64,000 nucleotides of DNA from a virus, in the IMG/VR virus record IMGVR_UViG_3300037258_000161, positions 1-64,000 of that record; one strand, 5' to 3'. Position numbers and translations under genes: made by a program. Shown here piece after piece: positions 10,677 through 62,650 of the stretch (positions are counted from its first letter, which is position 1; every line of letters starts with the position of its first letter). Below the pieces are notes generated by a model. It was not told the origin of the DNA, made no database searches, and saw nothing but the letters and a program-made list of their open reading frames with translations.

Positions 10677-11110
10677 ACGGGACCCCGGCTGACCCTCTGG
10701 CCGCGTTCCTGGCCGACGCAGGGGAGCGGGAACGGGCCGCGACCAGGGCCCCGTGGCGGGCACACGACACCTGGCTTGAGTCCGGCGGTCACACGGCGAC
10801 AGTCCTGTCAGGCGAAGGTAACGCCACCGACCTGCGGGCATGGCTCCCGACCTTCGCAGGAGGCCTCGTGGCATGGGACGAGGGGCGCAACGCCTGGAAT
10901 GACGCCGCGTTCATCGCCGCGGCAAGGGCAGACGTCCCCCGTCTCCTCGCTGCGGTTGAGAAGGTGCTGGCACTCGCCGCCAAGCATGAGCACGGGGCCA
11001 CGCGTTGGGAGGACCCGCTGCCGGTGCCAACGTGGATCCCAGAACTACGCGAGGTCATCTCCCGCGAGCTCCTGGGTCCGGAAACCACTAGCACCGAGAT
11101 GGAAGGATGA
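10673..11110 (+). CDS. Ea22-like early phage protein, second copy
   Basis: 145 residues from GTG. Shares the ATRAPWRAHD... DAAFIAAARADVPRLLAAVEKVLAL layout with the protein at 9182. Last gene before RtcB, which starts only 5 bases downstream, so RtcB is likely in the same early transcript. Confidence 0.6.
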   Translation: MNGTPADPLAAFLADAGERERAATRAPWRAHDTWLESGGHTATVLSGEGNATDLRAWLPTFAGGLVAWDEGRNAWNDAAFIAAARADVPRLLAAVEKVLALAAKHEHGATRWEDPLPVPTWIPELREVISRELLGPETTSTEMEG

Positions 11111-11114
11111 GTAC

Positions 11115-12395: not shown

Positions 12396-12469
12396 CGGGG
12401 TGTGGGGAAGGTTGGTATCCCGCGTGATTTGGGATCACGAGATCGCCGGTTCGAATCCGGTCACCCCGA
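12396..12469 (+). tRNA. tRNA-Pro (anticodon TGG)
   Basis: A complete cloverleaf: acceptor CGGGGTG/CACCCCG (7 bp), D stem GGGA/TCCC, anticodon stem CGTGA/TCACG with loop TTTGGGA (anticodon TGG), 5-nt variable loop, T stem GCCGG/CCGGT with loop TTCGAAT, discriminator A. The C1-G72 pair is characteristic of tRNA-Pro. The CCA end is not encoded, so it must be added; the phage itself encodes a CCA-adding enzyme at 13413-14825. The last 9 bases overlap the 3' end of the antisense gene at 12461. Confidence 0.93.
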
Positions 12470-12736
12470 CGAGTCCTCCAGGCGCCTGATCCCGGCCGGG
12501 TCGTAGAGGAACCATCCCTCCCGTCCCCCGACCGCTGACGACGCGTACCAGCGGATCCCCACACACCAGCGGCCATGACGGTCCCTGCGCTGGCCGATGA
12601 CCCGGGCATCCGCCCAGGTGCCGTCCTGGAGCAGCACCCCGGCATCGGAGTCCTCGAGCCTGGTACTGCCTTCCACGGCATCTGCGGGCATGGCGCGCTC
12701 AAGCTGGGGCTCGCGGGAGGGGTCGGAGATGGTCAC
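12461..12736 (-). CDS. Small protein at the end of the RNA-repair operon
   Basis: 91 residues from GTG at 12736, overlapping the previous stop (GTGA). The core (GVLLQDGTWADARVIG, then WCVGIRWYA, then GREGWFLYDPAGIRRL) looks like a small SH3-like beta barrel of a type I believe is common in Streptomyces genomes. The TGA lies inside the acceptor/T-arm end of the convergent tRNA-Pro gene. Function unknown; its place in the operon hints at RNA binding. Confidence 0.6.
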   Translation of the reverse strand: MTISDPSREPQLERAMPADAVEGSTRLEDSDAGVLLQDGTWADARVIGQRRDRHGRWCVGIRWYASSAVGGREGWFLYDPAGIRRLEDSSG

Positions 12737-13416
12737 CCGGTCCACATGGCCGAGCGCACCCGCAGCAGCCACGCCTCGGCCGCAGCCTCGTCCGGGTCGG
12801 CCGGGAGCGGCGTCCGGATGGTGTCGAAGTCATGCTCAGCCTCGGCCAGCAGCGCGCGGGCCGCGTCGAGATCCCCGGCCGCCACCTGCTCCCCGAACTC
12901 GAAGAACTCGGCCGGGTTGCCCAGCCGCACATGCAGTTCGCCGGTCCGGTACAGTTCCCGTCCCTGCACGACCAGCCGCTTGAGGTGCCTCGCGTGCTTT
13001 GCCGTGCGCTTCCTGGTGTCGGCCGAGAACGAGCCGTCGCCACGGTTTTCCAGCTTCCGGAATTGCTGGGTGGCATACCCGAGGTGCGCATCCCTGACCC
13101 GCTTCGCAGACAGCAGCAACGAGCGGATGCCCACCAGCTCGTCGCCGAGGGGAGTGCGGACCTCCCACGAGTCCAGCCACACCAGCTCCGTGACGGTCGG
13201 GTTGCCGCCCAGGGCGAGCGAGACCCACTTCCGGGCCTCGTGGCAGGTGGAGTCCGGGTGCGTGGTGACGTGCGATTCCTGCGGCTTGTGCAGGCCATGG
13301 AACGCCACCGTGGGCGCAGCGAAAACGCCCAGCCTGTCAACGTCGGACTCCGGCGTGGCCAGCCCGTAAGCGGTTGAGCCCACCACGCCTGCCAGCAGGA
13401 TCGTTCCCGGGATCAT
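12733..13416 (-). CDS. RlaP/YcgL-type nucleotidyltransferase
   Basis: 227 residues from ATG 13416, preceded by GGAGGGAGG; an in-frame ATG at 13443 is less likely. The N-terminus has the polymerase-beta nucleotidyltransferase signature GSTAYGLATPESDVDRLGV (GS, then DxD). A helical region follows (ARKWVSLALGGNPTVTELVWL; RTAKHARHLKRLVVQGREL). This matches the family described as RNA-repair-ligase-associated RlaP (PF10127). It probably transfers a nucleotide to an RNA end. It is coupled (GTGA/ATGA) to the small protein downstream and the CCA enzyme upstream. Confidence 0.8.
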   Translation of the reverse strand: MIPGTILLAGVVGSTAYGLATPESDVDRLGVFAAPTVAFHGLHKPQESHVTTHPDSTCHEARKWVSLALGGNPTVTELVWLDSWEVRTPLGDELVGIRSLLLSAKRVRDAHLGYATQQFRKLENRGDGSFSADTRKRTAKHARHLKRLVVQGRELYRTGELHVRLGNPAEFFEFGEQVAAGDLDAARALLAEAEHDFDTIRTPLPADPDEAAAEAWLLRVRSAMWTG

Positions 13417-14825
13417 GCGGCCTCCCTCCGTGCGGCGAACCATGCGAGCGCGCCGGCCTCGTCATCGAACTCCCCGGCATCCTGCGCCGCGAGGGCGGCA
13501 GCAAGAACCGGCTTAAACGCCGGGCCCGGGATCATCCCGGCAGCGATGAGGTGGTCTCCGGTCAGCAGCCCCTTCGCGGGCCGCTCGGTCACCCTGAGTC
13601 CTGCCGCGAGTTCCAGCCAGCGGGCAGCCGGGTTCGCTGCCTGCGGATCGCCGCGCCCGGCCCGGTCAGCGCCGCAGACGATCGCCAGCTCGGCCATCGT
13701 CGCGGGCACGAGCCGCCGCGCCAGCCTGCGCACGGCTGGCTTTGTCGGCCGCCCGGTGCAGCACATGTGCTCTTTCACTAGCGGGACAATGTGCGCGATC
13801 ACCCCCTCCGGGCAGGCGACCGAGCGGAGGAATGCCTGGGCCGGCCCAACCCCCGCCGTAGCGTGGCCCTGGGATGTGATCCGCCCCCCGGTCCGCTGGG
13901 TGTGCGTCACCTTGCCCAGGTCGTGCAGGAGTGCGCCCATGACGACCACGAAGCGGTCAGCGCCAGTCAGCCCTGCGTCGTCGGCCAGTCCCGCGGCCTG
14001 GTCCCCGGCCAGCCCGGAGTGGACGTGGACATCTCCCTCCGGGTGCCATGCCGGGTCCTGCTCGACTTCGTGCAGGGATGCGATCTGCGGGAAGTGCCGC
14101 TCCCATCCGGTGTCCGCCAGCACCGTGAGTGCGGCGCTGAGGTGCCTGCCCTTGGTGCCGATCTTCTCGAACTCCACCCAGACGCGCTCTACTGGCAGCT
14201 CGGCGTAGGAGTCCGCCAGTGAGCGGCAGAGCGCGGCGGTTTCCGGGGCGAGCGTGAAGCCGAACCGGGCGGCGAACTGCACTGCGCGCAGCACTCGCAG
14301 CGGATCCTCGGCGAACGCGGCAGACGTGTGCCGCAGGATTCCGGCCCGGATGTCAGCTGTGCCCCCGTGGCAATCGACAACCTCGCCGGTCTCCGGGTCG
14401 AGCAGGATCGCGTTCATCGTGAAGTCGCGCCGGGCGCTCGCCTCCGCGAAGCTGAGGCTCATGTCGGGGAAGACCTCGAAGCCGCGGTGACCGGTACTGA
14501 CCTTCCGCTCCCGGCGCGGGACGTTCACGTCGAGGTCAGTCTCCCCGGCGCGGATCTTGAGCACGCCGAAGCTCTTGCCGACCTCGTCCACCCGCCCGGC
14601 CTGGCTGAGAGCTTCCGCCACGGCGGCGAAGGTCAGGCCGTAGACCTCAATGTCGATGTCCTTGGCCGCGTGGCCCGCGCCGATGATGGCATCCCGGACG
14701 CACCCGCCGACGAGCATGGGCCGTCCGCCTGCGCCACGGATGGCGGCAAGGATGCGCCCCGTCTCAGGATCAAGGTGCGTGGTGATGGTCACGGTAGGTG
14801 CTCTCTCGTTGGTGGAGGTGGTCAC
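13413..14825 (-). CDS. cca: CCA-adding tRNA nucleotidyltransferase
   Basis: 470 residues from GTG 14825, which overlaps the HNH stop; GTG 14792 (459 residues) is the alternative. Motifs in order: GGCVRDAI, DIDIEVYG (catalytic carboxylates), RRDFTMNAILLDPETGEVVD, EDPLRVLRAVQFAARFGF, and a C-terminal HD domain (LLHDLGKVTHT). This is a full-length class II bacterial CCA enzyme with HD domain, which builds or repairs the 3' CCA end of tRNAs. The phage tRNA-Pro has no encoded CCA and is a likely client. Phage copies are uncommon. Confidence 0.93.
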   Translation of the reverse strand: MTTSTNERAPTVTITTHLDPETGRILAAIRGAGGRPMLVGGCVRDAIIGAGHAAKDIDIEVYGLTFAAVAEALSQAGRVDEVGKSFGVLKIRAGETDLDVNVPRRERKVSTGHRGFEVFPDMSLSFAEASARRDFTMNAILLDPETGEVVDCHGGTADIRAGILRHTSAAFAEDPLRVLRAVQFAARFGFTLAPETAALCRSLADSYAELPVERVWVEFEKIGTKGRHLSAALTVLADTGWERHFPQIASLHEVEQDPAWHPEGDVHVHSGLAGDQAAGLADDAGLTGADRFVVVMGALLHDLGKVTHTQRTGGRITSQGHATAGVGPAQAFLRSVACPEGVIAHIVPLVKEHMCCTGRPTKPAVRRLARRLVPATMAELAIVCGADRAGRGDPQAANPAARWLELAAGLRVTERPAKGLLTGDHLIAAGMIPGPAFKPVLAAALAAQDAGEFDDEAGALAWFAARREAA

Positions 14826-15424
14826 GGGGTCAGGAACAACTGGCCCTGCGCCCGGCAGTAGAGGTCCGTCAGCACTGCTTCCCATGTCGCCGCCGAGACG
14901 ATCGGGCCGCGGCCAAAGTGGGCTCCGAAGCCAAGGATGCTGGACACGCCCTCGCCTTCGAGGCAGCCGAGGGCGACCTTCAACTGCTCGTCCGAGAATG
15001 TGGCGAGCGCTTTGAGCATCTCCCTGCCCGGCCCGGTGTACGACTTCACTGCCTCGCGAAAGCTCGACGTGAAGAAGAGTTCTGTATGGTCTCCGGTTCG
15101 CGGATGGCCAGCCAGCCACTTCCACATGTACCGGGGGTCGATGGTGTCTGGGGCCGCCAGGTGGCACTCATGGCAGAGGAGCACCCTGTTAGCCGGGTCA
15201 TCATCGGACCCGCCGAGCGACTTGGGTATGACGTGCGCCCGGTCCAGCGAGATGCCGCGCTCCCATGAATGGTCGCGACCCCATGCCTGTGCGTCGTACT
15301 TGCCCCACGCTCCGCAGGCAAAGCAGTCCGGCTCGCCCCGGTCGATGCACGGAACGTAGTCCGTCCCCGGTATCCAGCGCCCGGCCCAGTAGGCGGCTAC
15401 TTCCGCGATTGTTGGCTCGCTCAT
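14822..15424 (-). CDS. HNH endonuclease
   Basis: 200 residues. A CFACG then LDRAHVIPKSLGG then NRVLLCHECH arrangement gives the HNH beta-beta-alpha metal finger with zinc-binding Cys pairs (residues ~34-85). The C-terminal ~110 residues are helical (REMLKALATFSDEQLKVALG) and unfamiliar. It is overlapped at both ends (ATGA with the recombinase stop, GTGA with the CCA enzyme), so it is an integral operon member rather than a loose insertion. It could be a homing enzyme or an effector. Confidence 0.85.
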   Translation of the reverse strand: MSEPTIAEVAAYWAGRWIPGTDYVPCIDRGEPDCFACGAWGKYDAQAWGRDHSWERGISLDRAHVIPKSLGGSDDDPANRVLLCHECHLAAPDTIDPRYMWKWLAGHPRTGDHTELFFTSSFREAVKSYTGPGREMLKALATFSDEQLKVALGCLEGEGVSSILGFGAHFGRGPIVSAATWEAVLTDLYCRAQGQLFLTP

Positions 15425-16053
15425 GATTCCCCCTGTGTTGGTAGCGACGGCAGGTCCGCAGCTTCAAGCGCCGTGACGGCCTGCCCATTGGTCAGGTGGT
15501 CTAGGTAGCGCGCGGTCACGGCCACACTGGAATGACCCAGTAGCTTGCTGATGGTGGTCACGGTTTCCCCGGCTGCCTCAAGTTCGGCCGCGAAGGTGTG
15601 CCGCAGTCCGTGCGGGTGAACGCGTCGCTCAATGCCGGCCTTGGCGGCCATCCGCTTGAGCGCGTCCCGCACGTAGCGGTCGGACAGCTTGCCGCCGGCC
15701 AGCGTGCAGAACATCGGCCCGTTGCGGAGGCTGAGTCCGCGCCGGGTGTCGAGCCAGCGAGCCAGCGCGTCGTCGGCGCTTGGATGGAAGCCGCGAGTCT
15801 GGGGCTTGCCCGTCTTGGTGTCGAGCAGCCGGATGCTGTGCTTGGCCATGTCCACATCAGCCGGGCGCACCGCCAGAACTTCAGACACACGGAGACCGGA
15901 GCGGTAAAGCATGGTGATCATCGCGCGGTTGCGTATACCCGTTGGAGCCCGCATCGAGCACCCATGCAGGAGCATCGCCACCTCGGCCGGGCTAAGTAGC
16001 TCAGCGGGGAACTTCCGGTCCCAGTTCGGCGGATGCTGTCCTTTCTCTGCCAT
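15421..16053 (-). CDS. Short tyrosine recombinase
   Basis: 210 residues from ATG 16053 with an AGGTGG ribosome site; the frame is open to GTG 16101. The catalytic set is complete: Arg in SGLRVSEVLAV, Lys in TKTGKP, HxxR in HGLRHTFAAEL, His in LLGHSSVAV, Tyr in ARYLDH. Only ~40 residues precede the catalytic domain, so the usual N-terminal core-binding domain is short or absent and no arm-binding domain exists. It may be a Xer-like resolvase or excision partner rather than a standard integrase. It is the first gene of the operon running to 12461. Confidence 0.88.
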   Translation of the reverse strand: MAEKGQHPPNWDRKFPAELLSPAEVAMLLHGCSMRAPTGIRNRAMITMLYRSGLRVSEVLAVRPADVDMAKHSIRLLDTKTGKPQTRGFHPSADDALARWLDTRRGLSLRNGPMFCTLAGGKLSDRYVRDALKRMAAKAGIERRVHPHGLRHTFAAELEAAGETVTTISKLLGHSSVAVTARYLDHLTNGQAVTALEAADLPSLPTQGES

Positions 16054-16074
16054 AGTGGCCCACCTGACGGCTTG

Positions 16075-16102
16075 AGTGTTGCCTTTGACTATTAGCAACA
16101 CT
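16075..16102. promoter_or_regulatory. Inverted repeat upstream of the tyrosine recombinase
   Basis: AGTGTTGC (16075-16082) and GCAACACT (16095-16102) are perfect inverted repeats around a 12-bp AT-rich spacer. On the minus strand a TATAGT -10-like hexamer overlaps the right arm. A further GCAACA lies at ~16143. The geometry resembles a tyrosine-recombinase core site or an operator of its promoter. Confidence 0.45.
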
Positions 16103-16162: not shown

Positions 16163-17581
16163 TCAGCGCCACTCGTACAAGATCGCGCTCCGATCGAAAT
16201 ACCGGCCGTCCTGCATCGGCCCCCTCGGCCGTCCCCGCTGCGGCATGATCCACACCCAGGCGAACACGTCCCCGACGATGGCCCGCTGCCGCCCGATGTC
16301 CAGCCCGGCGAGCCACCCGCGGATCTCCTCCGCCGAGGCGGGCATCCCCGACAGCGGCGACGCCCCGGCAGCCGCAGCGAGCCGGGCGTTGAGCGCGGCG
16401 ATCTCCCGGTCCGCCCTTGCGGTCCCGGCCGCGAGCTGCCGCCTGTCGATGATCCCGGCGACCTTGTCCTCCACGAGGTCGTCCTTGGCCTTGCGCCAGG
16501 AGATCACCTGCGCCGCGATGGCGTCAGTGTCGGGCAGTTCCCTTCCCCTCGGTGCCGCCTGCTGCCCGTCCCGTGCGAGCCGCGTGGCCATCAGGTCGCG
16601 GATCCACTCGTCCACGGGGGAGCAGGTGCGGGAGACGTGCCCGGTGCAGCGGTAGACGGTGCGCCGGTCCCCGTGGTGGGTGTGCAGGAGGCCCTGGCAG
16701 ATGCCGCACTGGAACAGGCTCCCGCCGAGCCACCTGCGTTCCGGTCCCGGGGTGGTGCGGCGTGACGGGTCACCCAGGATGGCCTGGAGGCCGCGGAACA
16801 GGGTCACGTCGATGACGGCCGGCCACTGGCCCGTGACTCCCTCGGCCCCCTGCCAGACGTTGATGCCGGCGTTGCGTGGCCGCAGGAGGGTCCGCCTGAC
16901 CATGGGCGCGGTCCAGGTGCCGCCCCGCGAGCCTGTCACCCCGGCCGCGGTCCAGCGCTTGGCGATGGCCAGCAGCGGCGTGCCGCTGAGCACAGCGCTG
17001 GAGGCGTCGCGGAGGAGCTGCGCCTCGGACTCGCGGATGACCAGCCCGCCCCCGGTGCGCTCGTACCCGAACGGCCTGGGACCCCCGGACCAGATGCCCG
17101 CCGCTGCCTGCTCGGCCTTGAGGGCGAGGATGCGCTCGGTGAGGTGGTCCACCTCGTAGGCGGCGTCGGTGGCGTCGTTGCGCAGGCGCTTGCGCCCCGT
17201 GGCGGTGGAGAGGTCATAGGAGCCGCCCCGGGGAGTCTCCACCAGGTGCCTGCCGGCGGCGCAGACGCGGATGAGTTCCTCGGTGTCATCGGCGTTGCGG
17301 ATGAGCCGGTCGGCGTGCCAGGCGGCGACACCGAGTCCGGGTGTGGCGCGGAGGGCGGCGAGCATGTCGTCGAATCCCTCGCGCTCGGGCCGCGCTCCGC
17401 CTACCTTGCGGTATGCGGTCCGGTCGGTGTCGGTGTACTCGCCGAGGACTTTCGCGCCGAGGCTGCCGAGGTAGCCGGCGGTGACGGTGCGCTGGCGTGC
17501 AACGCCGGCGCGGCCTTTGCTCTTGCGGAGGTAGAGCACGTACCCGCGTGGCTCGTCCATGGACAGAGAGGCTATACCCAT
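16163..17581 (-). CDS. Large serine recombinase (integrase)
   Basis: 472 residues. The resolvase domain starts at YVLYLRKSKGRAG (catalytic Ser ~20), with D/R motifs ending in GVAAWHADRLIRNADD. A recombinase domain follows (RPFGYER; TWTAPMVRRTLLRPRNAGI), then a zinc ribbon (FQCGICQGLLHTH ... YRCTGHVSR.CSP) and a coiled-coil C-terminus. This is the classic phage integrase order for directional attP x attB integration. The start could also be ATG 17560. Its attP would normally lie beside the gene, likely in 17582-18335. It is encoded directly upstream of, but not overlapping, the tyrosine recombinase. Confidence 0.92.
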   Translation of the reverse strand: MGIASLSMDEPRGYVLYLRKSKGRAGVARQRTVTAGYLGSLGAKVLGEYTDTDRTAYRKVGGARPEREGFDDMLAALRATPGLGVAAWHADRLIRNADDTEELIRVCAAGRHLVETPRGGSYDLSTATGRKRLRNDATDAAYEVDHLTERILALKAEQAAAGIWSGGPRPFGYERTGGGLVIRESEAQLLRDASSAVLSGTPLLAIAKRWTAAGVTGSRGGTWTAPMVRRTLLRPRNAGINVWQGAEGVTGQWPAVIDVTLFRGLQAILGDPSRRTTPGPERRWLGGSLFQCGICQGLLHTHHGDRRTVYRCTGHVSRTCSPVDEWIRDLMATRLARDGQQAAPRGRELPDTDAIAAQVISWRKAKDDLVEDKVAGIIDRRQLAAGTARADREIAALNARLAAAAGASPLSGMPASAEEIRGWLAGLDIGRQRAIVGDVFAWVWIMPQRGRPRGPMQDGRYFDRSAILYEWR

Positions 17582-18335: not shown

Positions 18336-19085
18336 ATGACGATACAGCCTGACGCGGGGACCACTCCGCTTGAGCGGTATCTCGCGGACATGGATGCCGA
18401 GAGGACACCTCGGCGCCCGAATACGCACAAGAACATGTGCCGCGGAGCCATGTGCACTGCGGATGTCCCGAATCTTGAGTTCGTGATCTTTGACGTCCTG
18501 GTAGCAGGCACCCGGAAGTGGGACGTCTGGAAGCTTTCCGAGAAGCTCCACGTGAGCGACAAGGTAGTACGCCGCACTCTGGCCCACCTGGTGGAGCACG
18601 GATGGCTAGTGGCCAGCAAGCCGCCGTGGGAGACGAAGCCAGGCCTTGACTGCACCTGCCCGGGCCGCAGATGGCGCGGGCGCACCCAGGATCGGCGTCC
18701 CCCGCCGGACGGCATTGAGAACAATGGCCGGACGGCCCTGTACCGGCTCTACGATGCCGAGGATCGCCTGCTCTACGTGGGGATCACCGACGTCCTGGCC
18801 GCCAGGATGCGGCAGCACGCGAAGGAGCAGCAGTGGTGGCCGGAGGTCGCCCGGCAGACCGTGGCGTGGTACGACGAGCGCGCCAAGGCGGACCTAGCCG
18901 AGACGCTTGCTGTCGCGGCCGAGAAGCCTCTCCACAACAAGGCCAAGCTCTACTCGCCGGCGCCCGCAGCCGACTTTGAGTGGATGAGGCAAATCTCCGT
19001 GACCTGTATCGGCTGCGACGCCAGGGCCCGGCGGGGGTGCCGGACTTGCTGGGAGCACGCTGAGCTTGAGTTGAGGACCGCCTAG
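18336..19085 (+). CDS. Winged-helix / GIY-YIG nuclease fusion
   Basis: 249 residues. Residues ~45-95 look like a winged helix (WDVWKLSEKLHVSDKVVRR then LVEHGWLVASK). Residues ~128-205 are a GIY-YIG domain (ALYRLYDAEDRLLYVGIT, conserved Arg in AARMRQH, Glu in LAETLAVAAEKPLHN). The C-terminus has CIGCDARARRGCRTC, a zinc ribbon. So it is a DNA-reading head, nuclease and zinc finger in one chain. It heads the plus-strand operon after the pseudoknot leader. A regulator-nuclease or homing role is possible. Confidence 0.8.
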   Translation: MTIQPDAGTTPLERYLADMDAERTPRRPNTHKNMCRGAMCTADVPNLEFVIFDVLVAGTRKWDVWKLSEKLHVSDKVVRRTLAHLVEHGWLVASKPPWETKPGLDCTCPGRRWRGRTQDRRPPPDGIENNGRTALYRLYDAEDRLLYVGITDVLAARMRQHAKEQQWWPEVARQTVAWYDERAKADLAETLAVAAEKPLHNKAKLYSPAPAADFEWMRQISVTCIGCDARARRGCRTCWEHAELELRTA

Positions 19086-21415: not shown

Positions 21416-22228
21416 TCATGCCGGCACCCTCAGAACCGCGCCAGCGGGGACAGGCAAGGTCGCGGGGATGCGGCCTTCAAATACGGCATTGAGCCAGGTG
21501 GCCACGTCGGGCTCGAACTTCCCGTCGTGGTTGGCAGTCCTGCGGATGATCCCGGCCGGTGTCCACCCCGGATGCCTCCCGCACAGTGCGGTCAGCGACG
21601 TCTTGCCGTCGCTGGTCCAGTTCTGCTCGCTCACCGCTGCCACTGGTCCCTCCCCAGGACGCCACTGCCCGAAGTCTGCCGTCACGGCCTCGTCGAGGTC
21701 CACGGCCTGGTTCCCGACGCTCTTGTTGATCGCCGTCTGGCGGATCTGCGCCCCGGGATGCCACTTCCCGCCCGACCAGGCGAGGGTCTGGAACGCCCAC
21801 TTGCAGACACCTTTCCCCAGTGCCGCCGTGACGACCGCCAGCCCCCCGTAGACGCCCGTGGCGTCCTTCCCCAGCACTGAGGCGGCACCGCGGAGGCAGT
21901 CCAGCACGGCGGGGATCTGGCCCGGCTGGGCGTCGAAGTCGCACCCGAGGTAGACGGGGCGTCCTGCGGGCATCCCGGCGTCTCGGCCGAGCTTCAGGGC
22001 GGTCCTGGCCGCGGCCTGACCGGCGTCAGCGCCGCCGAGCATCCACGTCGCCGGTCCCTCGTAGACGCTGGCGATCCACAGTCCCGCTGACGCGAGGGCG
22101 GTGGCCTCGCCGTGGCTGATGCCCTTGGCGCCGCCGTCCAGGTAGCGGATCACGAACCTGTAGCCAGCGGCGTGGATGGCTCCGGGGCTGGGTCTCGAGA
22201 AGCTGTAGTCGACGCCCTGGGTGCTCAC
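21416..22228 (-). CDS. Endolysin, DUF1906 glycoside-hydrolase-like
   Basis: 270 residues from GTG 22228 with an AAGGAGG ribosome site. Residues ~3-200 match the Rv2525c-like glycoside-hydrolase-like fold (GVDYSFSRPSPGAIHAAGY, FVIRYLDG, VYLGCDFDAQPGQIPAVLDC, VDLDEAVTADFGQW). The C-terminal ~70 residues (SLTALCGRHPGWTPAGII ... IPATLPVPAGAVLRVP) look like a small wall-binding module. It would cleave cell-wall glycan after holin release. Membrane protein genes of the lysis cassette are coupled just upstream. Confidence 0.88.
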   Translation of the reverse strand: MSTQGVDYSFSRPSPGAIHAAGYRFVIRYLDGGAKGISHGEATALASAGLWIASVYEGPATWMLGGADAGQAAARTALKLGRDAGMPAGRPVYLGCDFDAQPGQIPAVLDCLRGAASVLGKDATGVYGGLAVVTAALGKGVCKWAFQTLAWSGGKWHPGAQIRQTAINKSVGNQAVDLDEAVTADFGQWRPGEGPVAAVSEQNWTSDGKTSLTALCGRHPGWTPAGIIRRTANHDGKFEPDVATWLNAVFEGRIPATLPVPAGAVLRVPA

Positions 22229-22521
22229 GGTGCCTCCTTGGCTTTGTGGGCACGGTGCATGGCCAGGATGTGGTGATGGGTGGGCTTGCCGTCCGGGTGA
22301 TGCTTGCGGCAGACGACGTACGTGGTGCCCTCGACGTGCTGCCTGCCGATCCGCCAGCACCCTCGGACGTGGCAGTTCACGCGGTGCCAGCCGGCGAAGA
22401 TCGCGCCGAGCAGGGCGACCTCGCCTATGTCGCTGCCGAAGCCGCTCCAAAATCCGTAATACGGGCCAGGTTCGTTGACCGTCCCGGTGTGGACGGCCAG
22501 CCAGTGGAGGAACCAGTTCAC
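22225..22521 (-). CDS. Lysis-cassette membrane protein
   Basis: 98 residues from GTG 22521, overlapping the stop of the upstream small gene (ATGTGA). An N-terminal hydrophobic stretch (WFLHWLAVHTG ... VALLGAIFAGWH) precedes a basic Cys/His-rich end (NCHVRGCWRIGRQHVEG; VCRKHHPDGKPTHHH). This type occurs beside actinophage endolysins. The His/Cys cluster could bind metal. Confidence 0.65.
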   Translation of the reverse strand: MNWFLHWLAVHTGTVNEPGPYYGFWSGFGSDIGEVALLGAIFAGWHRVNCHVRGCWRIGRQHVEGTTYVVCRKHHPDGKPTHHHILAMHRAHKAKEAP

Positions 22522-22688
22522 ATGCGCTTCGCGGTCTGGATGAGCGGCACTGCGATCCAGAACAGCAGGCCGAGCGGCACGAGGACGCCCAGCACCCACG
22601 CCGAGGGCTCACGCAGCTTCGGCGCCAGCACCGCGAACAGGAAGCAGGCAGCACCGAGCAGCAGCAGGATGAAGTAGATCTTCTCCAC
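22518..22688 (-). CDS. 56-residue two-helix membrane protein
   Basis: GTG 22688 to TGA 22518-22520. Two hydrophobic helices (IYFILLLLGAACFLFAVLA and VLGVLVPLGLLFWIAVPL) are joined by a short KLREPSA turn, with a KR-containing tail. A small holin or antiholin is plausible given the position between the endolysin and other lysis genes. Confidence 0.6.
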   Translation of the reverse strand: MEKIYFILLLLGAACFLFAVLAPKLREPSAWVLGVLVPLGLLFWIAVPLIQTAKRM

Positions 22689-22701
22689 GGGGACCTCCAG
22701 G

Positions 22702-23121
22702 TCAGATGAAGCTGGCGGCGAAGCACAGGCCAGCAGCGATGAGCAGGATCCCGAATGTCTGCACCCACGCCAGGAGTCCGCGTTCCGGCCTCAGCCAGCT
22801 GATGGCCCCGGCGACGATGGCCACGAGCGCCAGCGACGGGCCGAGGGCCGCGAGGCCGTGCGCCAGCAGGTACGGCAGGGCCGGGACGACACAGGCCGCC
22901 AGTGCCGCCGCACCGTTGGCGAGTGCTGGCCAGTAGCCCGCATCGCTGTCGGACAGGTAGGCCCCGGCACTCATGCCAACGAGTTCGGCCAGGCCGGCAC
23001 CGATAGCGGCGTGGACCAGTGCGTCAGGGTGGCCGGTCAGGCTCACGACCAGGCCGAGCGCCAGGACGAGGCCGTCTGCCGCGCCGAACGTGGCCTGCTT
23101 GCGGAGGATGGTGGGCGTCAC
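22702..23121 (-). CDS. VIT/CCC1-like membrane protein
   Basis: 139 residues with about four to five transmembrane helices. The N-terminus FGAADGLVLALGLVVSLTG, then GLAELVGMSAGAYLSDSDAG, then a VPALPYLL loop, matches the order seen in vacuolar-iron-transporter (VIT1/CCC1) proteins. It is shorter than those (usually ~220-240) and lacks the cytoplasmic metal-binding helices. It may be a degenerate transporter adopted as a holin-type protein. It is coupled by ATGA to the gene upstream. Confidence 0.65.
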   Translation of the reverse strand: MTPTILRKQATFGAADGLVLALGLVVSLTGHPDALVHAAIGAGLAELVGMSAGAYLSDSDAGYWPALANGAAALAACVVPALPYLLAHGLAALGPSLALVAIVAGAISWLRPERGLLAWVQTFGILLIAAGLCFAASFI

Positions 23122-23603
23122 GGCTTGATGCGGTAGGCACGTTCACAGTTGCGCGACGCCCAGCCCACGGCGATCTCGGCGCGGGCGTGCGCGAGGTAGG
23201 CACGCGCGGCCGGGGTCGCATGCGCCGGGGTGCGCAGGATGCCGTTCAGGACGCTCTCCTGCCGTGCCAGGCGCACATTGTTGGCCTGGCACCCGGCCAG
23301 GTTGGAGGCATGCACATCCTGCACGGTGGCCGCGTTGCGCTTCGCCGCCGCGATGGCGTTCCGCTCGCCGTGGAGCGCGACGAACGCGACCGTCGTGGCG
23401 GTGACGTCCAGCAGGAGCCCGACGACGGCGATGATGATCAGGATCCTGTTGAGCCGCCCGTACCGCGCGAGGGCGGCGTCCCGTTCCTCGCTGCCGGTCT
23501 TGACCTCATCCAGCCGGGAACTGAGCCCGTTCACGGACCCGGTGAGCGCCCGGGCCGCGTCGAGGGCTTCCTGGTTGCGGCCGGGCGGCGTTGCGTGGCT
23601 CAT
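23118..23603 (-). CDS. Membrane-anchored coiled-coil protein
   Basis: 161 residues. A soluble helical N-terminus (~1-45), a single TM helix (ILIIIAVVGLLLDVTATTVAFVAL) and a ~90-residue exported helical domain with two cysteines. This resembles spanin- or Rz-like topology reversed, or a minor membrane protein common beside Streptomyces phage lysins. Role unknown. Confidence 0.6.
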   Translation of the reverse strand: MSHATPPGRNQEALDAARALTGSVNGLSSRLDEVKTGSEERDAALARYGRLNRILIIIAVVGLLLDVTATTVAFVALHGERNAIAAAKRNAATVQDVHASNLAGCQANNVRLARQESVLNGILRTPAHATPAARAYLAHARAEIAVGWASRNCERAYRIKP

Positions 23604-23755
23604 GACGGCGTCAGCTCCTCGGCCGGGGCGTCGGGGGCCGGGGGTGCGGCCGGTGCGAGGATGGCCTGCAGGGCGTCCACGCTGGCCCGCAGCTGGTCCA
23701 TCAGGGCGTCGGCGTCGGCGACGACCTTGCGTATCTCCGCGTCCTTACTGGCCAT
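23600..23755 (-). CDS. Small acidic protein
   Basis: 51 residues from ATG 23755. One helix (EIRKVVADADALMDQLRASVDALQAIL) then a Pro/Ala-rich acidic tail. Overlaps neighbours on both sides, supporting translation. Confidence 0.5.
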   Translation of the reverse strand: MASKDAEIRKVVADADALMDQLRASVDALQAILAPAAPPAPDAPAEELTPS

Positions 23756-24032
23756 CGGGATCACCTTCGCCGTCGAGCCCGGCGAGCTTGCCGAGAAGCC
23801 ACGCCATGCGCTGCGACTGGGTGATGGCCTCGGTGACGAGTTCCCGGATCTGCGCAGGGGACATGCCCTCCCCTTGCTTGGTGAAGGCGCTGGCGCTGAG
23901 GTCCGCAAGTTGCTGTGCGGTGGGCATGCCGGCTGCGCGCTCGCGGACCCGGGCAGCCATCAGGCGCGTCTCCTCGGAGATCTCATCTTCGGTCCCGGTC
24001 ACGGGCGCTGCCCTCCCGCCGCTCGCGGTCAC
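23745..24032 (-). CDS. Small helical protein
   Basis: 95 residues from GTG 24032 (AGGAA ribosome site); TTG 24038 is an alternative. Helical with QQLADLSASAF and SPAQIRELVTEAITQSQRMAWLLGKLAG. Overlaps the upstream gene by 50 bp. No family recognised. Confidence 0.5.
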   Translation of the reverse strand: MTASGGRAAPVTGTEDEISEETRLMAARVRERAAGMPTAQQLADLSASAFTKQGEGMSPAQIRELVTEAITQSQRMAWLLGKLAGLDGEGDPDGQ

Positions 24033-24369
24033 GGACAAGTTCCTGCAGGAGTGGCAGGAGGCTCTGTGTCGCCGCGGTGAACGAGACCAGCATCGGGACG
24101 AGCTGATCTGTCGCGAGCTTCAGCGCCTCGTCTCGCTGGTCCTCGGCCTGCTTCTTCTCCGCGATGAGCCTGATGTTCTCCGCCACGAGGTCGCTGCGGG
24201 CGGCCGAGACGGAGTTGTTCATCACCGACTTGGGGACGATGTAGCCGAGCCCGAATAGGACAATTCCTACCCCAAGCGGCCCGAAGCCCAGAATGTAGGA
24301 GATCGCATCTCCGGTGACGGAGCCGACGGGCGTGACACTGGTGGCCAGGAGCCAGTAACCTGCCCACAC
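23983..24369 (-). CDS. Membrane protein with coiled coil
   Basis: 128 residues from GTG 24369 after a G-rich ribosome site. N-terminal hydrophobic segments (ISYILGFGPLGVGIVLFGLGYIV) precede a long charged helix (LVAENIRLIAEKKQAEDQRDEALKLA). First gene of the leftward lysis cassette after the fiber genes. Unknown function. Confidence 0.6.
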   Translation of the reverse strand: MWAGYWLLATSVTPVGSVTGDAISYILGFGPLGVGIVLFGLGYIVPKSVMNNSVSAARSDLVAENIRLIAEKKQAEDQRDEALKLATDQLVPMLVSFTAATQSLLPLLQELVRDRERREGSARDRDRR

Positions 24370-24475
24370 CAGCGCCCCCCGTCTTTTGGTTGTCCTGGTG
24401 TGCCTTACGGGGCCGGTATCCCGGGCCCGTCTCCCTCGTGTGCGCAGTTACCTCACGTCACCGGATGACTACAGC

Positions 24476-24481
24476 TAGCAT
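24476..24481 (+). promoter_or_regulatory. -10 hexamer of a leaderless promoter
   Basis: TAGCAT lies 8 nt before ATG 24490. No ribosome site precedes the gene. The geometry implies transcription starting at or next to the start codon. Confidence 0.45.
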
Positions 24482-24489
24482 CGGGGCGC

Positions 24490-25839
24490 ATGAGTGCCAT
24501 GATGCTGCGCAGGGACCACGCAGCCGCCAGGACTGCCCGCTGCGGCAGGGGAACGCTGTGGCAGGCCCGCATCGTCTGCCTGTCGGCCTTCGGGCCCTAC
24601 GTGACGGGCAGCGCGCGCACCGAGCAGATCGCGGTGTTCGGCCTGCTCGCGCTGATCCTGATCTCCGGATGGCCGCGGATCGTGAACGCAGGGACGGTCC
24701 CGCCGGTGCCGTTCCTGGTGACCTGGGGCGGCCTGTACGCGGTCATGCTGATCTCTACCGTGTGGCGCCCGTTCGATCCCGGGTTCTACGGCGCGCAGCC
24801 CGTCTCCCACTCGCTCTCGGCCCTCGCGCTGCCTGGCGCCCTGATGGTCATCACGTGGTACTGGTCACTGCGGGCCGGGGCGGTTGCGCTGATCCGCGCG
24901 GTGGCCCCGCTGATCACCGGGGGAATGAGCGTGAACACGCTCATCGAGCTGGCCCAGGTCTCGGCGGGGAAAGCGGCGGTGAGCGGTCTCCTGCCGCACT
25001 TCTGGTCCGCTCCCGGGCAGGCTGTCACAGTCGCCGCGAACGCCGCGCAGAACGGCCGGTACACCGGGATCTTCGACCAGCCCGCGGAGGCCGGCATCGC
25101 CTACGGGGTGGCGCTGCTGTGCGTGATCTGGCTGGCCCGGCGCGGGGTGACCCGTCTTCCGGTGACCGTGATCGCGGGCGTCCTGGTGACCGCCGGCGGG
25201 GTCCTGACGCTGTCGAAGGTGTTCCTGCTGGCCGCTATTCCCGTTGCGGTGGTGACGGTGCTGCGCGGCCCGGCGAGGATCCGGGCTGTCCTGGTGACGT
25301 CCGCATCGGCGGCGGTGCTGTGGGCGGCCGGTTCGGCGGGGATGCTTCCCGCGTGGCACCTGGGCGGTGTGGCGCTGGGGAGTCTCGCGCACCCGGGCAG
25401 TTCCCTGGCGTCGCAGTACACCGGGGGCCGGTATGGCTCAGGGGGCACTCTCGGCCCTGTCGCGTCCGATGTGCTGCACGCTTCCCCGTGGGCCGGTTTC
25501 GGCGCCGGGGGGCTGAACGCGGCCTACGATTCGCTGTGGCTGGAAGTGCTCGCGGTCAGCGGGGTCCTGGGCGTTGTCCTCGCCGCCGTCATGCTGGTCA
25601 TGCTGGCGTCGCGCTGGCTGGCGCTGAGGGCGTCGCTGGCGCTGCCGGAGTGGCATCTGGCGGGAGGCGTCCTGGCCCTCGCCGCCGGCGCGTCCCTGGG
25701 CATCCCGTCGCTGACGGCGAACCGTGCCGCCACATTGCTGTGGCTGATCCTCGGCGTGCTGATCACGGCACGATCAGGCGGCCCAGACTTCCATCACGGC
25801 CGGGCTGGCCTGGCTAGCGGGAATCGTCTTGCTGGCTGA
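24490..25839 (+). CDS. O-antigen polymerase/ligase-like membrane protein
   Basis: 449 residues with about ten transmembrane helices. The loop GRYTGIFDQPAEAGIAYGVALLCVIWLA matches the G-x-F-x-x-P-x-E-x-G pattern of the Wzy/O-antigen ligase family, followed by LTLSKVFLL and a large extracytoplasmic loop ending FGAGGLNAAYDSLWLEVLAVSG. Such enzymes join sugar repeat units on lipid carriers at the outer membrane face of the plasma membrane. It is a plus-strand gene among leftward late genes with its own promoter and overlaps the 3' end of the fiber gene by 66 bp. It could modify the host surface to exclude other phages. Confidence 0.7.
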   Translation: MSAMMLRRDHAAARTARCGRGTLWQARIVCLSAFGPYVTGSARTEQIAVFGLLALILISGWPRIVNAGTVPPVPFLVTWGGLYAVMLISTVWRPFDPGFYGAQPVSHSLSALALPGALMVITWYWSLRAGAVALIRAVAPLITGGMSVNTLIELAQVSAGKAAVSGLLPHFWSAPGQAVTVAANAAQNGRYTGIFDQPAEAGIAYGVALLCVIWLARRGVTRLPVTVIAGVLVTAGGVLTLSKVFLLAAIPVAVVTVLRGPARIRAVLVTSASAAVLWAAGSAGMLPAWHLGGVALGSLAHPGSSLASQYTGGRYGSGGTLGPVASDVLHASPWAGFGAGGLNAAYDSLWLEVLAVSGVLGVVLAAVMLVMLASRWLALRASLALPEWHLAGGVLALAAGASLGIPSLTANRAATLLWLILGVLITARSGGPDFHHGRAGLASGNRLAG

Positions 25840-28143
25840 GCCCATGGCGTACAGGGTGACGGTGCTGGCTGCGGTGCCGGACGCCAGCGCCCAGTCCATC
25901 TGGTATTTCTGGCCAGCAGTAAGCCCGGTGAGCACCTGGCTGGCGGACCACAGGCCGAAACTGGTGACCGCGTTCACGAGGAATACGCTGCCGTACAGAT
26001 TCCCCGAAGCGTGATCGAGCAGGCCCCAGCAGTGCAGCACGGCCGTGGTGGGAGCGGTGCCGTTCGCCGTCAGCCTCACGAGCACCTGGCCTGAGGCGGG
26101 AGCCGTGAACGAGACCGTCATGTTCACCTGGTCAACCGCTGCCAGCGTCGTGCTGCTGCTGGTGTAGATCGCCCTCGTGCCCGGTGCGAACTGGTTGACA
26201 CCCAGCAGGTAGGGCTGGTCAGGGCCGTAGCTTGGCTGGTCGAACACTGACGGGATGGTGCAGGGGTTGACGAACAGCGACCCGTTATTCGCGTAGAGGT
26301 TCGGCCCGATGAGGTGGCCGCCGCAGGCGTCACTGCCCTGGCCCATGTGCACGGCCGTGGAGGTGTTGTCGTGGATGTCGTTCCCGGCCACCACGCAGTT
26401 CCTGGCGACCATGTTGATGCCGTAGGTGCCGTTGTGGTGGAGCTCGCAGCCGGTGACGGTCAGGCTGGAGGCGTAGTCCACCCAGATGCCCGTGCCGGTG
26501 TTGTTCGCGCACACGCATCCCGAGATGGTCCCGCCCACGTCGGTGAAGATGTGGGAGCCGTCCAGGGCATACGCAGTGGTGGCGTCCAGGGCGTTGCCGA
26601 GGGCGCCGAAGGAAAAGGCCGTGGCGGTGTTCGAGGTGATGACCGCGGACTCGCCGTTGCCGGTCCCCCCGGTGAAGCGGATCGTCCAGCCTGCCCACTG
26701 GCTGGAAGTCCAGGACCGGGTGGAGTCCGTCAGGCTCGTGGTGGTGCCCGAGGAGGCGGTCCCGGTGACCTGGCTGCTTCCCCAGAGCACGTCGACGCCG
26801 ATGCCCCCGGCGCCGTTGCCCTCGCACCGCACCCCGGTGATGGTGAAATCGTGGCAGCCCTCGGATACGCATACCCCGTAGCCGGAGGTGCCGTTACCTG
26901 AGCAGTCACCCCCCGTGACCTGGAAGTCCGAGCACGGGGTGTTGAAGCTGGCGAAGTTGAACACCACCCCGTGGGCGGTGTTGCCGGTGCAGATGGGGCC
27001 GGTGATGTGCGTGCCCGCGGAGCCCTGGACCAGGATGCCGGACCGGCTGGAGCCGGTACCGCAGGCAGTGCAGACCGGGCGCACGATCCTGCAGTTCAGG
27101 CCGCCCGCGATCACGATGCCCGAGGCGCCGAGGTTCGTGACGGCGGCGTCCTCGAGGAAGGCCGTGACGGTATAGGTGCCGATCACGGCCGAGGCCACGG
27201 ATATGCCCTGCTGCCAGCCGTTCTGCACGGTGACCCGGCGGATGCTGATCCCGGTCACGCTCGCGCTGGCCGCCGTGACGCTGATGCCCATCTGCGTCGC
27301 AGCCGATCCGCTATTGGTATTGCCGGCGGAGTTCAGGTCGATCGTCAGGTCATGCCATGCCGCGTTTGACACGCTTGCGGCGGTGAAGACGTTGAAGGCG
27401 GAGGATCCTGAGGCGACCTTGATGGTCGTGAGGGACCGCCCGAGCCCGGCGATGGTGACACCGGCCGGGACGGCCACGCTCGCGTTGACCCAGAACGTGC
27501 CGGCGCCGAGCTGGACCAGGCCGCCCCCGGACGCGCTGGCGGCGGAGATGGCCGCGGAGATGGCCGCCTTGTCCGCGGCCCCGGTGGTGTCCGCCGACGC
27601 CTGGAGGAGCCTCGTCCAGCTCACGGCCTGCCAGGCGGCGTTCCCGGACGAGTCGGATCCCAGGTAGTCCCCCGCTGCCGCGCCGGACGGGATCCGCAGT
27701 GCGGGCGATCCGCCGAGGGTGAGCGTCCCCGACAGTGTGCCGCCGGTGAGCGGGACGTAGGCGCTGAGCGCCGTCCCGGGGGTCGCGGGGACCAGTGCGG
27801 AGAAGTCCAGCGTGGATGGTGAGCCGGGCAGGAACGCGGTGAAGGTGTCGGGGATGCCCGCGTCGAGGGTGAACTGGTAGGCCCAGTTCGCCGGGGCCAG
27901 TCCTGCCGTGTCGGTCGCGGCGAGGGGGAGCGAGAACGTCCCGCCGCTGCTGTGCCCGAAGCTGCGCCGAACCCCGCAGGCAGCCACGACGATGAACCCG
28001 GAGGCGTCGGTCACGGTGACAGGGATGACCTGCGTGCCCCTGGTGATCACGGGGACCGCCGTGATGGTGCCGCTGACCGGCTGGCCGGATGCGTCTGCCA
28101 CGGTGCCGGTCAGCGTCACCAGCGGCGGGATGGTGACGGGCAT
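25774..28143 (-). CDS. Tail fiber / receptor-binding protein with beta-helix
   Basis: 789 residues from ATG 28143, overlapping the stop of the previous fiber gene. Residues ~1-170 are the N-terminal domain shared with four neighbouring fibers (LVTLTGTVADASGQPVSGTI; GTLTLGGSPALRI). Residues ~180-640 form a right-handed parallel beta-helix with pectate-lyase-like rungs. The C-terminal ~130 residues (PGTRAIYTSSSTTLAAV ... [10 protein letters not shown]) are shared with the 796-residue fiber. It probably binds or degrades a host surface polymer. The longer open frame to 28422 overlaps the neighbour and is rejected. Confidence 0.8.
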   Translation of the reverse strand: MPVTIPPLVTLTGTVADASGQPVSGTITAVPVITRGTQVIPVTVTDASGFIVVAACGVRRSFGHSSGGTFSLPLAATDTAGLAPANWAYQFTLDAGIPDTFTAFLPGSPSTLDFSALVPATPGTALSAYVPLTGGTLSGTLTLGGSPALRIPSGAAAGDYLGSDSSGNAAWQAVSWTRLLQASADTTGAADKAAISAAISAASASGGGLVQLGAGTFWVNASVAVPAGVTIAGLGRSLTTIKVASGSSAFNVFTAASVSNAAWHDLTIDLNSAGNTNSGSAATQMGISVTAASASVTGISIRRVTVQNGWQQGISVASAVIGTYTVTAFLEDAAVTNLGASGIVIAGGLNCRIVRPVCTACGTGSSRSGILVQGSAGTHITGPICTGNTAHGVVFNFASFNTPCSDFQVTGGDCSGNGTSGYGVCVSEGCHDFTITGVRCEGNGAGGIGVDVLWGSSQVTGTASSGTTTSLTDSTRSWTSSQWAGWTIRFTGGTGNGESAVITSNTATAFSFGALGNALDATTAYALDGSHIFTDVGGTISGCVCANNTGTGIWVDYASSLTVTGCELHHNGTYGINMVARNCVVAGNDIHDNTSTAVHMGQGSDACGGHLIGPNLYANNGSLFVNPCTIPSVFDQPSYGPDQPYLLGVNQFAPGTRAIYTSSSTTLAAVDQVNMTVSFTAPASGQVLVRLTANGTAPTTAVLHCWGLLDHASGNLYGSVFLVNAVTSFGLWSASQVLTGLTAGQKYQMDWALASGTAASTVTLYAMGSASKTIPASQASPAVMEVWAA

Positions 28144-31007
28144 CAGGAGATACGCCGGGCAACTGCGTAGCTCCCGGCCTTCGGCGTTAGCGTGCTTCCG
28201 CCCGCAGTCCCGGCGTCCAGTTGCGGGTAGACGGTGCCGCTGGCAGAGAAGGACGCGAGGATCTTGATGGTGAGCGGCATCCCGTTGGTTCCGGTGTCGG
28301 TGGCCGACCCATTGCCGGTCAGGGTGATGGGCCCGGCGTAGGCCTTCGGGTTGCCGCCCCCGGACAGGGCGACGGTGATCCAGCAGGAGCCATAGGAGAC
28401 TGACGGGTTGCTGATTCCCCACCCGACATTGTTTCCGCTGCTGGCCGAGATGGTGTACCTGATGGCGAACTCGATGAGGTACGTGCCGCCCGAGACCACG
28501 GGGACGCCGAGCGCGGTCAGGTTCGCGAGGGAGGTACTGGTGATCCCGGTCGCATCCGAGGTCAATTCCGCGTAGGTGCTGATCTGCCCGTCGTACTGGC
28601 TGCCGCCCAGCGTGGAGCCGTTCACGATATTGGAGCCCGCGTCGTTGCCGACGAAGGTGAACTGGCTCGCATAGGTCGCGTTAAAGTTGATCGGTGCGCT
28701 GGCGTACTCGCCGTTGAACTGGTTGCCGGAGAAGTTGAACGGGCCCGTGGTGCACGCGCTGGCGTCGATGCAGTTCAGCGTCGATTGCGTCCACTGGCAG
28801 TTCGTGATCGACAGCGGCCCGGTCACGGGGGCGTCGAGCTGGATGCCGTTGTAGGAGTTCGTCGCCGCGCCCTGGCACTGGATGCCGCTGATGCGGATCT
28901 TCGCGCCGGCCTGGATGCGGATGGCCTGCGGGATGGAATGCACGGGGCTGGAGTTGTCCGCCCCGTAGTCCCCGCCGGTGATCTCCACATCCTGCGTGGC
29001 CACGCCGATCAGCAGCGACACCGACGCCGTGGCGGTCGCGTTGACCGCGGCCTGTGTGGCCAGCACGTTGTTCCCGGACGCGGGGACGACCTGGCACATC
29101 GTGAAGCCGACGCCAGGCGTCACAGTCTGGATGACGGTCCCGGAGGGGATGCCGGGCCCGGACACGTTCTTGCCCAGGTCGGTGGACAGGATCGCCGTGT
29201 CGGTCACCGCCGGGGAACCGGAGGTGGTGCCGCAGCTAGCGTCGGTCCGGCCGCCCATCCGCAGCGACGCACCGGAGGCGTAGCAGGCGTACATCCGCAG
29301 CTCGCCGTAGCAGGAGCCGAAGTCGAACCCGATGGGCTGGAAGGTGCCGCCGGGCAGGATCGCCTCGGGCGGGTAGACGCCGCCGCCGTTGTAGTTCGCC
29401 CCGACGTTGATGAGGGTGATGCCGTAGTTGGGCTGGCCGATGCCGAGGGTGTTGCGGCAGACGAGGGAGCAGATCCCGTTGATGTCGCAGCCGATCATCC
29501 ACAGCGACCCGTTGCACGAGTCCGACACCACGCCGACGGAGTCCCCGGAGATGCCCGTGGACAGGATGTGCAGCGGGTTCTGCGTGTAGATCCCGTAGTT
29601 CCGGCCGTAGATCCAGCAGCCGACGATCTCGGTCCGGCCGCCGCCGTTGAAGCAGGAGATCCCGTTGAAGCTGTTGTAAAGCCACATGTTGTTCATCCGG
29701 ACCGTGCCGCCGGTCTGGAAGTTGATCGCCGACCCGGCGGTCGAGCCTGCGATGGTGAGCTGCACATTCGACGCGGTTGCGGTCGCGTTGGCGCTCATCG
29801 TGAACGAGGTCCCGGCGACCACTGACAGGATCGTCGTCCCGCCCGGGATCCCGGCCCCGGTGACGGTCTTCCCGACGTCGACGGTGCCGATCGCGGAGTC
29901 CAGGACGACGGCGCTGCCACTGGTGGTGACACACGAGATGTCGGTGACGGTCAGCGATACCGTGGCGGATGCGGTGGCTGCCTGGCTCATCACGAACGAC
30001 GTGCTGGCGACGACACTGACGATGGTGGTGCTCGCGGGGATCCCGGACCCGGTGACGCTGCGGCCGACGTCGGCGGTCTTGACGTGCGAGTCGGTGACGG
30101 TCGTGCTGGTGCTGGTCGTGACGCACCCGGAGTCGGTGCGGCTGACGCTGCCGAAGTCGGTGTGGTTCGACCCGACCGAGGAGTCCAGGTACATGTAGCT
30201 GAACGCGACCCCGTTGCCCGCCGCCACGTAGAACGTGTCGTAGTTCCCGGTGGCCTTGATCCGGGAGCCGTACCCGTCGCCCATGACGTGCAGGCCGTCC
30301 CCGTACGAGGACAGGGTGATGGTGCCGGTGGTCTTGTAGTCCCCGCTCGCGGCCGGGAAGTACAGGCAGCCGCCGCCCTGTGCGCTGAGCGCGTTCGCCG
30401 CGGCCTGGATGGCGCTGGTGTCGTCGTGGCTGCCGTTCCCGAGCGCCCCGTAGTTCCGCACGTTGAACACGGGGGAAGGCGCGGGCTGCCACGTCCCGTT
30501 GCCGGAACTGTCCGAGGTGAAGACGTTCCCCGCGACGGCACCCGTGGAGATCCGCAGCGGCGGGGAGCCGCCGAGGGTGAGCGTCCCTGAGACGCTCCCT
30601 CCGGTAATGGGGATGTAGGAGGTCAGCGCGGTCCCCGGCGTGACCGGGGTGAGCGCCGAGAGGTCAACGGGGGACGGGGAGGCGGGCAGCAGGACCGTGA
30701 AGACCTCGGTCGTCCCGGCCTGGAGGGTGAGCCTGTAAGCCCACCCGCTAGGTGCGAGCCCCGCCGTGTCGGTGGACGTGAGCGGCATCGAGAAGTAGCC
30801 GGCGGTCGATGCGGAGAACTGCCTGCTCACCCCGCACGGGGCGACGACGACCTGCCCGGACGTGTCCGTCACGTTCGTCGGGACGGGCGCGTTACCCGGT
30901 GCCGGGATGATCACCGGGACGGCGGTGATGGTGCCGGAGACCGGCTCGCCGGAGGCGTCCGTGACGGTGCCGGTGAGCGTCGTCAGGGGGGGCAGCGTGG
31001 CAGTCAT
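28143..31007 (-). CDS. Tail fiber with pectate-lyase-like beta-helix
   Basis: 954 residues from ATG 31007. N-terminal shared domain (~1-175), then a pectate-lyase-3-like start (FNVRNYGALGNGSHDDTSAIQAA) and a long beta-helix. Three copies of a ~60-residue block (consensus TTSGS..V.DS...T.DVGK.V.G.GIP.GT.I.SV) occur at ~295-355, ~358-420 and ~592-668. The C-terminal ~140 residues form a beta-sandwich. Probably a depolymerase-type tailspike. Coupled by TGATG overlaps on both sides. Confidence 0.8.
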   Translation of the reverse strand: MTATLPPLTTLTGTVTDASGEPVSGTITAVPVIIPAPGNAPVPTNVTDTSGQVVVAPCGVSRQFSASTAGYFSMPLTSTDTAGLAPSGWAYRLTLQAGTTEVFTVLLPASPSPVDLSALTPVTPGTALTSYIPITGGSVSGTLTLGGSPPLRISTGAVAGNVFTSDSSGNGTWQPAPSPVFNVRNYGALGNGSHDDTSAIQAAANALSAQGGGCLYFPAASGDYKTTGTITLSSYGDGLHVMGDGYGSRIKATGNYDTFYVAAGNGVAFSYMYLDSSVGSNHTDFGSVSRTDSGCVTTSTSTTVTDSHVKTADVGRSVTGSGIPASTTIVSVVASTSFVMSQAATASATVSLTVTDISCVTTSGSAVVLDSAIGTVDVGKTVTGAGIPGGTTILSVVAGTSFTMSANATATASNVQLTIAGSTAGSAINFQTGGTVRMNNMWLYNSFNGISCFNGGGRTEIVGCWIYGRNYGIYTQNPLHILSTGISGDSVGVVSDSCNGSLWMIGCDINGICSLVCRNTLGIGQPNYGITLINVGANYNGGGVYPPEAILPGGTFQPIGFDFGSCYGELRMYACYASGASLRMGGRTDASCGTTSGSPAVTDTAILSTDLGKNVSGPGIPSGTVIQTVTPGVGFTMCQVVPASGNNVLATQAAVNATATASVSLLIGVATQDVEITGGDYGADNSSPVHSIPQAIRIQAGAKIRISGIQCQGAATNSYNGIQLDAPVTGPLSITNCQWTQSTLNCIDASACTTGPFNFSGNQFNGEYASAPINFNATYASQFTFVGNDAGSNIVNGSTLGGSQYDGQISTYAELTSDATGITSTSLANLTALGVPVVSGGTYLIEFAIRYTISASSGNNVGWGISNPSVSYGSCWITVALSGGGNPKAYAGPITLTGNGSATDTGTNGMPLTIKILASFSASGTVYPQLDAGTAGGSTLTPKAGSYAVARRIS

Positions 31008-62556: not shown

Positions 62557-62573
62557 TTTTTGCCGCAATCTCA

Positions 62574-62610: not shown

Positions 62611-62650
62611 ATGTCCGGGCATGAACCCGGTAAGCTTGGAGAACACAAAC

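Follow-up and report, generated by a model that had tools for sequence, protein, structure and literature searches.

The window analysed here, 64,000 nucleotides long, opens a 108-kb IMG/VR virus record (IMGVR_UViG_3300037258_000161). It carries HK97-type capsid genes, a portal, a terminase, a tape measure and fibre genes, the majority of them on the minus strand. Between fibre and lysis genes lies a plus-strand gene for a 449-aa membrane protein, whose surroundings are as follows (G002 is a related phage, IMGVR_UViG_3300044692_000050):

24490..25839, plus strand: Wzy-like polytopic membrane protein gene, 449 aa, candidate glycan polymerase
25774..28422, minus strand: tail fibre/spike with a right-handed beta-helix (PF13229, PF12708)
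24370..24489, no strand: divergent intergenic region of 120 bp between the Wzy-like gene and the leftward lysis-side genes
23983..24369, minus strand: 128-aa protein adjoining the Wzy-like gene; its counterpart adjoins the homologue in G002 (37% identity)
23745..24038, minus strand: 97-aa protein of the fibre-lysis interval, kept in G002 (41% over 61 aa)
23118..23603, minus strand: 161-aa protein of the fibre-lysis interval, kept in G002 (31%)
21416..22768, minus strand: endolysin with an Rv2525c-like glycoside-hydrolase domain
16163..17581, minus strand: large serine recombinase (resolvase and recombinase domains)
15421..16101, minus strand: tyrosine integrase

An earlier note on this DNA placed the gene, in reverse orientation, between fibre and lysis genes, and the fibre gene on one side and the endolysin on the other bear this out. 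The 3' ends of the Wzy-like and fibre/spike genes overlap tail to tail by 66 bp. The same note gave the gene its own promoter. A scan of 24200-26000 for sigma-70-like sites, a type of scan that is weak for an actinophage of 68% G+C, returned none; the 120-bp gap, which is the only room for the promoters of this gene and of the leftward lysis-side genes, could still hold one. We found no wzx, wzz, glycosyltransferase or polymerase-inhibitor gene beside the Wzy-like gene.

Compared with its nearest IMG/VR relatives, the window portal shows 55-62% identity, rising to 81% over a 348-residue stretch in one 5-kb IMG/VR fragment; it is at most about 40% identical to those of named Arthrobacter and Curtobacterium phages. 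The named phages that come closest in portal and tape measure have Arthrobacter, Curtobacterium and Microbacterium as hosts, so the Gram-positive host assumed in the earlier note is plausible, and the window probably represents a soil phage of Gram-positive actinobacteria. The tyrosine integrase and the large serine recombinase make a temperate lifestyle plausible. That two such genes adjoin each other in one phage (15421-17581) is an observation in its own right.

A selected gene in a conserved slot

The open reading frame, for which ATG codons at 24499 and 24502 are alternative starts, shows a coding-like G+C content by codon position (0.70/0.57/0.88). A long antisense frame might also arise by chance in a genome of 68% G+C, where such frames are common and of which the window's list of open reading frames holds many. 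The chance reading has practically no probability left and we rejected it: apart from 66 bp the frame lies outside the fibre gene, and it has homologues down to 26% identity that share its membrane topology and diverge mainly at third codon positions. Compared with the homologue in G002, identity by codon position is 0.64/0.73/0.50, and the third base differs at 112 of the 227 residues that are identical in the two proteins. This concentration of divergence at third positions indicates purifying selection. The Wzy-like frame is a real, selected gene.

At least five more phage or provirus records contain homologues, which are 26-54% identical to the window protein, the range also spanned by pairwise identities within the family, which has five intact members and one broken one. 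The closest is encoded by the 102-kb record of G002, whose portal is 61% identical to that of the window. Its Wzy-like protein (54% identity) is likewise encoded antisense, by a gene whose 3' end lies within that of a fibre gene, and behind it come counterparts of the three lysis-side proteins (128, 97 and 161 aa); these neighbours are less similar to their window counterparts (31-41%) than the Wzy-like proteins are to each other (53-54%). In G002 an OrfB/TnpB-like frame also lies between the Wzy-like gene and the lysis genes.

Searching 2.9 million viral contigs with nucleotide patterns of the two best-conserved motifs yielded three further distinct intact homologues, in L090 (a 37.8-kb record), L101 (16.6 kb) and L102 (record 2903870927). 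The L102 record has an identifier whose format points to an isolate genome, not a metagenome, and its tape measure is nearest to those of Microbacterium phages. A homologue in the replicate contigs L088 and L091 (L091 51-1311, minus strand) is broken by an internal deletion and a change of frame, as if the trait had been gained and lost. A profile built from five sequences found the known members and nothing further within the fetched set, and a wider motif scan returned almost only terminases. Searches of phages and plasmids with the family members by tblastn gave no match, while a D3 Wzy control worked; scans of genome contigs with peptides private to the two closest members gave none either, a result that with such narrow queries leaves room for cellular relatives. 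Among related phages, G003, G007 and G019 had no match to the Wzy-like protein (G007 and G019 being partial records), and its lack in G003 marks the gene as accessory, at least relative to that phage. The gene stands last in the records of L090 and L102, at a point where a provirus may have been cut by IMG/VR, and may be a host gene at these two loci; elsewhere it is internal.

The position of the gene is conserved throughout. At six of six loci it is antisense to, and convergent with, a fibre or spike gene: the 3' ends overlap in the window, in G002 (24 bp) and in L101 (33 bp), and are separated by 67 bp in L102, about 180 bp in L099 and 574 bp in L090. The neighbour has a beta-helix or pectate-lyase-like fold of the glycan-targeting kind in the window, L090 and L101, a GDSL esterase domain in L099 and a glycine-rich fibre domain in G002; in that of L102 no domain was recognised.

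In related phages, long frames at L067 10816-12027 (minus strand) and L073 15557-16840 (plus strand), which start RSAYRCRAYP and RTAYKCRAYP and contain FGCVRVVWNRTLA, resemble inserted OrfB/TnpB-type transposases. In G003, a gene among the head genes (L073 16841-17797, minus strand) has a start that resembles a GT-B glycosyltransferase.

Profiles, predicted structure and conserved residues

The earlier note recognised a Wzy-like protein and proposed a search with PF04932 (Wzy_C). This profile gave no match to the window protein at E<=10, and neither did Pfam, NCBIfam and PHROGs profiles give anything above chance for it or any family member. PDB sequences had no match, a profile-profile comparison with D3 Wzy, VarioGold, WaaL, WzyE and WbbH scored no better than one with unrelated transporters, and an HMM of the core motif gave no signal against Wzy, WaaL and shuffled controls. 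PF04932 did reach the L101 homologue weakly, with 5.9 bits (E 0.096) over profile positions 17-149 (133 of 149), below the curated cut-off of 31.7 bits. The matched region is equivalent to residues 201-366 of the window protein; in WaaL it carries the catalytic loop. Wzy proteins have little sequence identity with one another, as reviews emphasise (PMC12004945), and Wzy-beta of phage D3, an experimentally studied polymerase, itself stays under the PF04932 cut-off with 25.4 bits; the profile misses are thus compatible with membership of the Wzy class.

Ten helices had been claimed for the protein. A simple hydropathy scan finds about 10 segments, so its polytopic nature stands, but the AlphaFold model has 12 membrane-length helices with a predicted topology. 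This model is of low confidence (mean pLDDT 51, pTM 0.52); an earlier run from two sequences reached a pLDDT of 34 and was discarded. The longest loop of the model (283-348) lies between helices 9 and 10, near the C-terminus. A Foldseek search against 350,542 PDB chains placed the O-antigen ligase WaaL first (7tpg_B; E 0.033, probability 0.89, full length), ahead of a second match at E 0.6 and probability 0.14, with transporters only at E>=1. The TM-score of the WaaL match is low (0.24) and the model weak (pLDDT 51), so we treat it as a lead only. A fold search of BFVD with the same model returned no match.

Conservation among five homologues is concentrated on the predicted outer face, where 25 of 139 loop positions are invariant compared with 1 of 55 in the inner loops; lysine and arginine show the inverse bias. 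The invariant polar or charged residues of this face are R190, K243, R314, D347, E352 and R412. R314 falls in the long loop, and K243 is aligned with R215 of WaaL in weak alignments. The spacing of D347-S-x9-G-x-x-G equals that of H-N-x9-G-x-x-G in E. coli WaaL (H338) and nearly that around H300 of D3 Wzy-beta. The distance from the candidate second arginine to the catalytic residue is 33 here, 50 in WaaL and 28-30 in D3. All family members have aspartate at the position of the catalytic histidine of WaaL, and the ligase motif H-[NSQ]-x9-G-x-x-[GTY] is absent. In the inverting bacterial polysaccharide polymerases of clan GT-C1, conserved arginines lie on the outer face and Asp or Glu stands where ligases have His; this is the state of both GT-C1 polymerases and SEDS proteins, whereas ligases keep the histidine (PMC10920833). 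The window protein resembles this clan in its predicted helix number, its predicted long outer loop near the C-terminus, its conservation on the predicted outer face and, as far as weak alignments show, its pattern of Arg with Asp/Glu, although neither Pfam nor NCBIfam contains its sequence family.

The Wzy-like identity thus found no backing in profile searches of the window protein, and gains indirect support from the 7TPG fold match, the weak Wzy_C match in L101, and the architecture and residue pattern. The protein is likely to be a very divergent member of the Wzy polymerase/WaaL ligase class, with a GT-C fold like that of clan GT-C1, and within this class we clearly favour a polymerase over a ligase.

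Other functions have to be weighed against this assignment. A WaaL/PglL-like enzyme that shares the fold but works as a ligase or O-oligosaccharyltransferase would transfer a lipid-linked glycan of the host onto a wall polymer, a lipid, or a phage or host protein instead of polymerising repeats. The best fold match is indeed a ligase, and the Wzy_C domain is common to ligases and polymerases (PMC3643930). Such an enzyme is nevertheless unlikely here, given the aspartate at the catalytic position in all members, where ligases keep His (PMC10920833), and given that no acceptor-protein gene is adjacent. Somewhat less likely still is a membrane protein with an unrelated fold that confers superinfection exclusion, either blocking the entry of DNA or acting non-enzymatically. 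An antisense accessory gene in a phage would suit that role, as would the failure of every enzyme profile to match; with its 449 residues, roughly 12 helices and an outer face bearing invariant polar and charged residues, however, the protein looks more like an enzyme or a carrier, and the fold search singled out WaaL. A transporter or flippase would account for a polytopic protein with charged residues in or near its helices. We consider it improbable: none of the six records had an MFS_1 profile match at E<=10, matches to NCBIfam and Pfam were at chance level only, and the fold search ranked transporters no better than E>=1. A better match to a transporter family, which the earlier note had named as grounds for dropping its reading, did not appear, profiles for SEDS (FtsW/RodA) and PF13425 also giving nothing at E<=10.

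A candidate enzyme of surface conversion

We conclude, with a probability of about 0.6, that the gene encodes a lone glycan polymerase that is expressed by the prophage and alters the surface polysaccharide of the host. The enzyme would be embedded in the membrane of the host cell, its active site facing outwards. There the invariant K243, R314 and R190 may bind the diphosphate of a sugar repeat that is linked to lipid-PP, with D347 as the putative base in place of the histidine of WaaL. Using the host's own lipid-PP-linked repeat units as substrate, it would join or re-link the units of the surface polysaccharide, giving a polymer of different linkage or length. Expression in lysogens, the change of polymer and exclusion are inferences. 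Because the gene runs against the late genes, the lysogen may express it from its own transcript, with a promoter within 24370-24489, and antisense transcription of the late fibre operon may suppress it during lysis. Phages whose spikes match the original polysaccharide would no longer recognise the altered one and would fail to bind.

Phage Wzy proteins are known to convert the serotype of Gram-negative hosts that carry LPS or capsule. The comparison drawn in the earlier note with Pseudomonas phage D3, which remodels the surface of its host and thereby keeps other phages out, holds for the position of the gene: D3 wzy-beta (NC_002484, 23421-24581, minus strand) occupies the opposite strand between the genes for tail protein orf27 and for the endolysin, the slot used in all members of the present family. 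Both proteins are phage-borne and polytopic, and both have a long outer loop with an arginine and the catalytic-position residue, followed by x8-9-G-x-x-G. They share no significant sequence similarity, however, and the catalytic position is His in D3 Wzy-beta and Asp in the window protein. The D3 unit adds an inhibitor of the alpha-polymerase and an O-acetylase, whereas the window gene stands alone, with no frame of either type seen at its locus and only 120 bp to its neighbour; the D3 target is Gram-negative LPS, that of the window phage a probable Gram-positive glycan. A single prophage polymerase has a precedent in WzyPh1 of Acinetobacter baumannii 36-1454, which, acting alone and without an inhibitor gene, changes the linkage between capsule repeats (PMC9241936), in a different host and capsule. 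In the Variovorax phage VarioGold (OP296522), a gene of the O-antigen ligase family also lies near lysis genes and a tail spike on the opposite strand; its product is a relative of D3 Wzy (31%) and, apart from the motif spacing, has no detectable similarity to the window protein. WaaL (PDB 7TPG; GT121), the top fold match, has the 12 helices and the long outer loop close to the C-terminus that are predicted for the window protein, and weak alignments suggest that basic residues and the catalytic position correspond. The window protein differs in having Asp for the catalytic His, in that PF04932 does not reach it and in that no LPS core acceptor is expected.

The sequences apparently form a divergent phage family that has not been described before and whose role is of a known kind, and a limited literature search found no report of an equivalent of phage Wzy serotype conversion in actinobacteriophages. 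More tentatively, and at rather less than even odds, this would be an undescribed actinobacteriophage family of Asp-type glycan polymerases that forms a one-gene system of Gram-positive surface conversion, in which the genes for a spike and a receptor-altering enzyme are physically coupled and travel as a cassette and antisense late transcription serves as the off-switch in lytic growth. If actinobacteriophages do have an equivalent of Wzy serotype conversion, Gram-positive prophages would also rebuild surface glycans, the family would offer a handle on the polysaccharides that actinophages use as receptors, and a sequence family undetected by current Pfam, NCBIfam and PHROGs models would be added.

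Elsewhere in the window, an RtcB RNA ligase (10776-12287, plus strand; 77% identical to RtcB of G003), a tRNA-Pro(tgg) (12396-12470, plus strand) and a tRNA nucleotidyltransferase/poly(A)-polymerase-like protein (13413-15167, minus strand) look like a phage set for tRNA repair. Two homing-endonuclease-like proteins with GIY-YIG domains are encoded on the plus strand at 18336-19085 and 62560-63426.
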